Shown: positions 22,983 to 23,574 of the stretch, in pieces
How the letters are laid out: the number at the start of each line of letters is the position of its first letter
Position numbering within the stretch: position 1 is the first letter of the stretch
NCBI GenBank assembly: GCA_011032825.1
Contig: JAADJZ010000006.1
Location: 1,798,001-1,862,000, forward strand
Reading direction: 5' to 3'
DNA from: Massariosphaeria phaeospora
Taxonomy: Eukaryota; Ascomycota; Dothideomycetes; Pleosporales
Length of the DNA: 64,000 nt
The notes under the pieces: model-generated
What the model was told of the DNA's origin: nothing
What the model saw: the letters and a program-made list of their open reading frames with translations, nothing else
Databases searched by the model: none
Made by a program: the position numbers and the translations under genes

Positions 22983-23399
22983 GATGCGTTGGTGGAGTTA
23001 GGATCGGGGTGGTTGGGGTTATCTTGACCATAAGAGAAGGCGGGGCTTTTTTCTAGCGGGGCAGAGAGCTGCGCGACCTCGGTGTCGAGTCATCGTCCAC
23101 GGGCATTTGCCAGCTCTAGTGCTATATAACTCAATGTGTGCCTTGTAGGTTACTAGTAAAGAGGCTAGCTGTTAGAAAGAACAAGGAGTCATTCTAGTCC
23201 ACAATAGAATAGTGCAATAATCATAAAAAATCATAGCGCAAGTGATGTTGAGCCGTAGCTAGCCCCAACACACGCACCGAATGCCGTCCCGCTTTGCAAA
23301 AAAACACTCAGCGCTCACCCTTACCTCCGCTTCAAGGTCCGTTTTAACTGTGTAGTATATATATTTGCTAATGCAAAAAATCTCCATCAATTCATCACA
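22983..23399. other. Intergenic between HIS5 and the tRNA gene
   Basis: About 400 bp holding the HIS5 promoter and the upstream flank of tRNA-Glu. A TATATATATT stretch at 23356-23366 lies about 40 bp before the tRNA and could help place TFIIIB. Confidence 0.5.
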
Positions 23400-23436
23400 T
23401 CCGATATGGTCTAGTGGCTAGGATTTGCCGCTCTCA

Positions 23437-23460
23437 TCGAGAGTGCTACACTCTGTAGTG
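23437..23460 (+). other. Canonical tRNA intron (between positions 37 and 38)
   Basis: 24 nt, immediately 3' of the base after the CUC anticodon, the position cut by the eukaryotic tRNA splicing endonuclease. It begins TCGAGAG, so GAG can pair with the anticodon, and it contains short self-complementary segments (CTACA/TGTAG). Confidence 0.85.
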
Positions 23461-23474
23461 CCGGCAAGGCCCGG

Positions 23475-23527
23475 GTAAGTTACACTCATGAATCTGATGC
23501 AAAACTCAATACTAACACAAGCCTTAG
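23475..23527 (+). other. Spliceosomal-type intron inside the tRNA T arm
   Basis: 53 nt with donor GTAAGT at its start, a perfect TACTAAC branch-point consensus at 23510-23516, and a TAG end. Its length equals that of the mRNA introns nearby. It separates the fourth from the fifth base of the T stem 5' strand (equally, by one-base shift, after the fifth). It does not sit at the tRNA endonuclease position. Confidence 0.85.
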
Positions 23528-23558
23528 GTTCGATTCCCGGTGTCGGAATACAATTTCA

Positions 23559-23574
23559 TTTTTGGAGTTTTTTT
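23559..23574 (+). terminator. RNA polymerase III terminator T runs
   Basis: T5 at 23559-23563 and T7 at 23568-23574 lie 11 and 20 nt after the tRNA end. Confidence 0.8.

Follow-up and report, generated by a model that had tools for sequence, protein, structure and literature searches.

Introns resembling spliceosomal introns interrupt tRNA genes of the fungus Massariosphaeria phaeospora

A tRNA-Glu(CUC) gene of the ascomycete Massariosphaeria phaeospora (Dothideomycetes, Pleosporales) carries, besides the canonical intron at position 37/38, an insert of 53 nt in its T stem that is, judging from its sequence, most probably a U2-type spliceosomal intron in a functional gene transcribed by RNA polymerase III (Pol III), and one of at least six such tRNA genes in this genome (we would put the probability of this reading at about 0.85). 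The gene lies in what we call the window, i.e., the whole stretch of 64,000 nucleotides that was analyzed (C48:1798001-1862000), within a genome of 42,079,485 bases in 51 contigs. These interrupted tRNA genes are real, they are not ordinary, and they are a wider phenomenon than the single gene that the initial annotation had described, a picture that proved too narrow given five other tRNA genes with such inserts.

With both introns the window gene occupies 149 nt of the forward strand (23400..23548), while its mature form has 72 nt according to the sequence itself, ARAGORN, and a scan of trial deletions. The three exons of 37, 14, and 21 nt (23400-23436, 23461-23474, and 23528-23548) add up to this mature length. 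They are separated by the canonical 37/38 tRNA intron of 24 nt (23437..23460, from the sequence and ARAGORN) and by the spliceosome-type intron of 53 nt (23475..23527), which falls between nucleotides 52 and 53 in the T stem; tRNA positions of this kind (52|53 here, 45|46 and 24|25 below) follow a numbering of our own. The latter intron opens with the 5' splice site GTAAGT (23475..23480), contains the branch-site motif TACTAAC (23510..23516) with the start of CTAAC 16 nt before the intron's 3' end, and closes with the 3' splice site TTAG (23524..23527), so that direct reading of the sequence bears out the two inserts and the motifs as they had been annotated. The surrounding Pol III signals, all on the same strand, comprise a TATA-like element TATATATATTT 44 nt upstream of the gene (23356..23366), an unbroken A-box region at what we take to be its usual place, nucleotides 8-19 (23407..23418), the B box GGTTCGATTCC (23527..23537), and a TTTTT that is the probable Pol III terminator (23559..23563). 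Since the last base of the intron doubles as the first G of the B box, this promoter box is whole in the DNA.

No tRNA is called in the intact window by ARAGORN or by Rfam at its gathering score, yet ARAGORN calls a tRNA-Glu(CTC) with a 24-nt intron once the 53 nt are taken out. When deletions of 30-89 nt starting anywhere from 23440 to 23530 were tried (3450 trials), 975 of them gave some tRNA call, and the top score of 113.5 was shared by the four equivalent frames of this 53-nt deletion, of which a single one reads GT...AG; the next score, 111.1, belonged to 77-nt deletions that span both introns. The earlier statement that removal of both inserts leaves a 72-nt tRNA is confirmed.

Removal of the insert also restores the host gene exactly when judged against paralogs with an empty site. 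Querying the genome with the spliced form identified a second Glu(CUC) gene (L013, C12:1616944-1617035) that has its own canonical intron of 21 nt and no T-stem insert, and whose exon bases equal those of the window gene at all 72 positions. The canonical introns of the two genes agree at 18 of 21 aligned bases, with three gap columns. Ranked among 1225 pairs of tRNA flanks, their 3' flanks come 367th, a degree of similarity typical of such pairs, while their 5' flanks come 30th and are more alike than the 3' flanks, ranks by which the pair is not a fresh duplicate; the identical exons suggest that selection or gene conversion has been at work. The T-stem insert is likewise absent from a third Glu(CUC) gene (L081), whose exons have diverged. 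The Ile(AAU) genes offer a second empty site: L032 without its 15-nt intron equals the spliced form of the interrupted gene L040 (74 nt), a gene that, unlike this sister, has no canonical intron. In another Ile(AAU) gene, the diverged L100, the canonical intron is the only one. The initial annotation had named intact Glu(CUC) genes elsewhere, combined with silence of this copy, as evidence against its proposal. The first half of this holds with L013 and L081, and the window copy need not be essential; given these two uninterrupted genes it may indeed be dispensable, and both the interrupted Glu(CUC) and the interrupted Ile(AAU) gene, having sister copies free of the insert, could be unexpressed. 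A donor of the Glu intron was also sought elsewhere in the genome, and the only match was the Glu intron itself. The pattern GTANGT..TAAC..AGGTTCRANTCC occurs once genome-wide, with likewise one match for the backward-pattern control.

The insert had been said to look like the mRNA introns of the window, and this agrees with the two introns of 51 and 63 nt that the deposited protein implies for the nearby HIS5 gene: in size and motifs, the window insert appears to resemble these. A frame-based set of mRNA introns from the window was too noisy to be of use, with 13 candidates against nine in the reversed control. Scanning 146,787 bases (28 pieces, with some overlap) for a strict consensus gave 24 candidates of any length against 17 in reversed sequence, and 14 against two at lengths of 44-60 nt, where five of the 14 are Pol III inserts (those of Ile and U6 counted twice each) and nine are others. 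TTTT is absent from all seven Pol III introns considered below and present in four of the 24 mRNA-like candidates (Pol III ones included); being rare in the latter as well, it makes avoidance of terminators by the Pol III introns say little. A self-splicing intron was rejected, the insert being too short for one.

To place the window gene among the tRNA genes of this genome, loci were drawn from Rfam RF00005 (at least 48 matches, with 63 of 1281 first-look candidates scored), from searches with spliced forms, and from patterns of a B box followed by a T-run, which returned 71 rows in one set against 13 in its backward control (for a further set, the matches listed were used). Inspection of 21 B box and T-run places identified 12 as tRNA or tRNA-like and nine as neither. 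Altogether we count 63 tRNA or tRNA-like loci including the window gene (62 in one ARAGORN pass), three of them doubtful: L077 (C23:354650-354970), tRNA-like with 40.8 bits to RF00005 and an unclear anticodon (ARAGORN "???"), and the adjacent tRNA-like genes L059 and L061 (C11:305099-305356), to which ARAGORN assigns the anticodons UCA and UUA. Six of the 63 loci contain a GT...AG insert outside position 37/38, and the other 57 have an intron at 37/38 or none, as called by ARAGORN or, for oddly parsed ones, read by eye.

The six interrupted genes are spread over five contigs, and their inserts share the motif pattern GT...CTRAY...YAG. Apart from the window Glu(CUC) gene they are Ile(AAU) L040, with 47 nt at 45|46 and the start of CTRAY 14 nt before the 3' end; three Gly(GCC) genes with inserts at 24|25, namely L060 (49 nt, CTRAY at 15 nt), L073 (51 nt, 16 nt), and L074 (48 nt, 15 nt); and Arg(UCU) L088, also at 24|25 (49 nt, 15 nt). 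All except the Ile gene carry the canonical intron too. With the inserts removed, ARAGORN recognizes Glu(CTC), Ile(AAT), Arg(TCT), and, in all three copies, Gly(GCC), and with the inserts left in it gives no tRNA or a wrong anticodon. By eye, the spliced Arg(UCU) junction reads like that of Arg(UCG) L044, and the spliced Gly(GCC) has a T at position 25 like Gly(UCC) L014. The Arg gene (C51:939350-939660) and the three Gly genes are of different isotypes and have their inserts at the same position. Folded alone, the Ile insert (C7:783132-783452) reaches -8.1 kcal/mol, a lower value than for any of the other five (-1.5 to -5.1).

A B box and a T-run are found at all six genes, i.e., the Pol III signals around the introns are intact. 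A TATA-like element is present at five of them, and none was found in a search upstream of Gly L060; among seven other tRNA genes compared with the window gene, six have such an element at -41 to -53. Rfam missed the Arg(UCU) gene but also an ordinary Glu(UUC) gene (L085). No gene among the 63 loci is readable as a Phe, Trp, elongator Met, Pro(AGG), or Pro(UGG) tRNA, and these genes may be concealed by inserts of this kind or may just have escaped the search. Nine unresolved B-box loci produced no tRNA when spliced on trial, a weak negative given that five of the nine had no GT...CTNAY...AG candidate, and two scans of viral contigs, a collection that is not one of fungal genomes, found none of the Gly and Arg junctions. 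Separately, a B box followed by a T-run, with an upstream TATA-like stretch seen by eye, occurs at L069 (C1:2326300-2326600), L072 (C6:948880-949200), and L083 (C34:2135430-2135730), and a B box followed by a T-run at L076 (C23:334670-334990). None of these four has an Rfam match at E values up to 1, and they are possibly novel Pol III RNAs.

The same kind of intron is found in a U6 gene. The Rfam U6 model has six matches in the genome, five of which read through, while L068 (C48:1900803) is interrupted by 54 nt reading GTACGT...CCTAAC...GCAG; spliceosome-type introns in Pol III genes of this fungus thus also occur in the class already known for them. Another U6 match, L067, lies about 1.4 kb from L068; TATATA is absent from the 130 bases that precede its conserved core, and from its sequence it looks like a pseudogene.

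Taken together, the seven Pol III inserts (six tRNA genes and U6) measure 47-54 nt and all have the start of CTRAY 14-16 nt before the 3' end. The 5' splice sites of the window Glu (GTAAGT), Ile (GTGAGT), Arg (GTAAGT), and U6 (GTACGT) inserts conform to GTRNGT, which we take, in line with the consensus scans of this genome's DNA, to be the fungal consensus. Those of the three Gly inserts (GTCCGT, GTCCGA, and GTTCGT) depart from it and keep GT and the G at +5. In 125,510 bases, candidates of the GTRNG type are enriched (41 forward against 16 reversed) and those of the GTYCG type are not (three against five). The branch motif of the Arg insert is CTAAT. A fungal study puts the average distance between branch and acceptor in U3 introns at 15 nt, a count that may start from a different base (PMC5832005).

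The case for excision is strongest in the Gly(GCC) and Arg(UCU) genes, and that for the spliceosome in the Glu, Ile, and Arg inserts. All three Gly(GCC) copies and the one Arg(UCU) copy that we found contain the insert, and genome patterns allowing up to three mismatches found no uninterrupted copy of either, with only one Gly(CCC)-like gene matched; the DNA search with spliced forms missed the diverged Glu(CUC) copy L081, and diverged uninterrupted Gly or Arg copies may likewise escape. By wobble rules, GGC and GGU are both read by the anticodon GCC, and UCU alone serves AGA. In six ORFs of the window (gene names as we read them, with HIS5 alone checked by search), GGC and GGT account for 223 of the 316 Gly codons, and 21 of the 235 Arg codons are AGA. 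Since these codons need the two tRNAs and every copy found is interrupted, the inserts are very likely removed from the RNA, unless uninterrupted copies were missed. Sister copies of the Gly gene fit this: their 71-nt exons are identical in L060, L073, and L074, and the inserts of L060 and L073 show 11 differences over 48 aligned positions, besides four gap columns. Between the Gly copies the first five bases (GTYCG, with one C/T change), ACTAACAA, and TTCTAG are kept while the middle varies, as would be expected of a 5' splice site, a branch site, and an acceptor that are in use. Sitting at one site in three related copies, the Gly inserts count as one gain.

Other explanations would have to account for the same data. 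The window gene could be a tRNA pseudogene or silent copy into which an mRNA-like intron was inserted, with other Glu(CUC) genes doing the work, as the existence of L013 and L081 would permit and as a review suggests where it treats single-copy D- or T-arm insertions of eukaryotes as likely pseudogenes (PMC4090602). We consider this unlikely in view of the 72 exon bases shared with L013 even though the canonical introns differ (gene conversion could also keep exons alike), and of a TATA-like element, B box, and T-run that, like the exons, show no decay; nor can it explain the Gly(GCC) and Arg(UCU) genes. Chance resemblance or assembly error, for which only the small size of the motifs speaks, is extremely improbable. 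Per 400,000 shuffles, the GT...CTRAY...YAG geometry arose 12 times for the Glu insert, 14 for Ile, five for Gly (L073), and 14 for Arg, counts to be multiplied by up to four, four, one, and two frames, respectively, and with frames counted this amounts to about 1e-5 to 1.4e-4 per locus for these four unrelated inserts. Six loci on five contigs with exact empty sites argue against an assembly error.

Finally, the inserts could be non-canonical tRNA introns cut by the tRNA splicing endonuclease, since D- and T-arm introns are known from cryptophyte nucleomorphs and the red alga Cyanidioschyzon merolae, sometimes two or three per gene, and the 5' end of the Gly inserts is not a consensus splice site. 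However, the algal introns described there differ from ours, with 3-24 nt in Guillardia theta and a tie to bulge-helix-bulge (BHB) motifs in C. merolae, and section 5 of that review does not mention GT-branch-AG signals for them (PMC4090602). None of our six inserts forms a central BHB helix with all four pairs (the best have 2-3 of 4), an argument that is weak since, of nine canonical introns (2-4 pairs), seven also fail and shuffled Glu inserts reach three or four in 1043 of 5000 cases. Canonical Sen introns sit at 37/38, where the window gene indeed has its separate 24-nt intron, but at 52|53 the T-stem insert is out of that place, and its greater length and its splice-site and branch motifs set it apart as well. 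Cutting by the endonuclease would leave the GT, the CTRAY at 14-16 nt, and the YAG of six tRNA inserts and of U6 unexplained, and appears quite improbable to us.

The evidence favors a spliceosomal nature of the inserts and, as the initial annotation had proposed, a need for both the spliceosome and the tRNA endonuclease: this part of the proposal gains support from the empty-site paralog, the splice signals, the recurrence in five more tRNA genes and U6, and two isoacceptors for which every copy found is interrupted, and it stands as favored rather than proven. We infer that Pol III would transcribe the whole gene, introns included, into a pre-tRNA whose T arm (the D stem in Gly and Arg) could not fold until the intron is removed. 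U1, U2, and U6 would recognize GTAAGT and TACTAAC, and excision by the spliceosome would follow in the nucleus, as with U6 RNAs that contain an intron. With the tRNA body restored, the Sen endonuclease could then measure to the 37/38 intron and remove it, while the Ile gene would need the spliceosomal step alone. On the genes found here, it is likely that the spliceosome has become an essential tRNA-processing machine: with all copies of Gly(GCC) and Arg(UCU) carrying such an intron, cytoplasmic translation of GGC/GGU and AGA codons would be spliceosome-dependent, and two unrelated splicing machines would act on single pre-tRNAs in a forced order.

For a Pol III transcript, spliceosomal removal has a precedent in the U6 RNA of Schizosaccharomyces pombe, whose intron is taken out in this way (PMC8917221). 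Introns of U6 genes in S. pombe and other fungi are alike in being GT-AG introns of a Pol III gene, as in L068, but the host here is a tRNA gene with its T stem, variable loop, or D stem interrupted and, in five of six cases, a 37/38 intron as well. Spliceosomal introns also interrupt structured non-coding RNAs such as the fungal U3 snoRNA and nuclear rRNA, which are not tRNAs (PMC5832005, PMC11782384). In its account of fungal introns, the former study names U3 and U6 as the only small structured RNAs then known to be often interrupted (PMC5832005), and according to the tRNAscan-SE 2.0 paper a eukaryotic tRNA gene has no more than one intron (PMC8450103). Among the matches listed for open-licence PubMed Central, no report of a spliceosomal intron in a tRNA gene was found.

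Standard tRNA finders miss genes in genomes of this kind, e.g., the window gene by Rfam and ARAGORN or Arg(UCU) by Rfam, which should serve as a warning. Nuclear tRNA introns and spliceosomal introns have so far been treated as separate worlds. Genes that combine both would show that the spliceosome routinely accepts short, strongly folded Pol III transcripts and in what way its introns spread into a new class of genes, and they would link splicing capacity directly to decoding.
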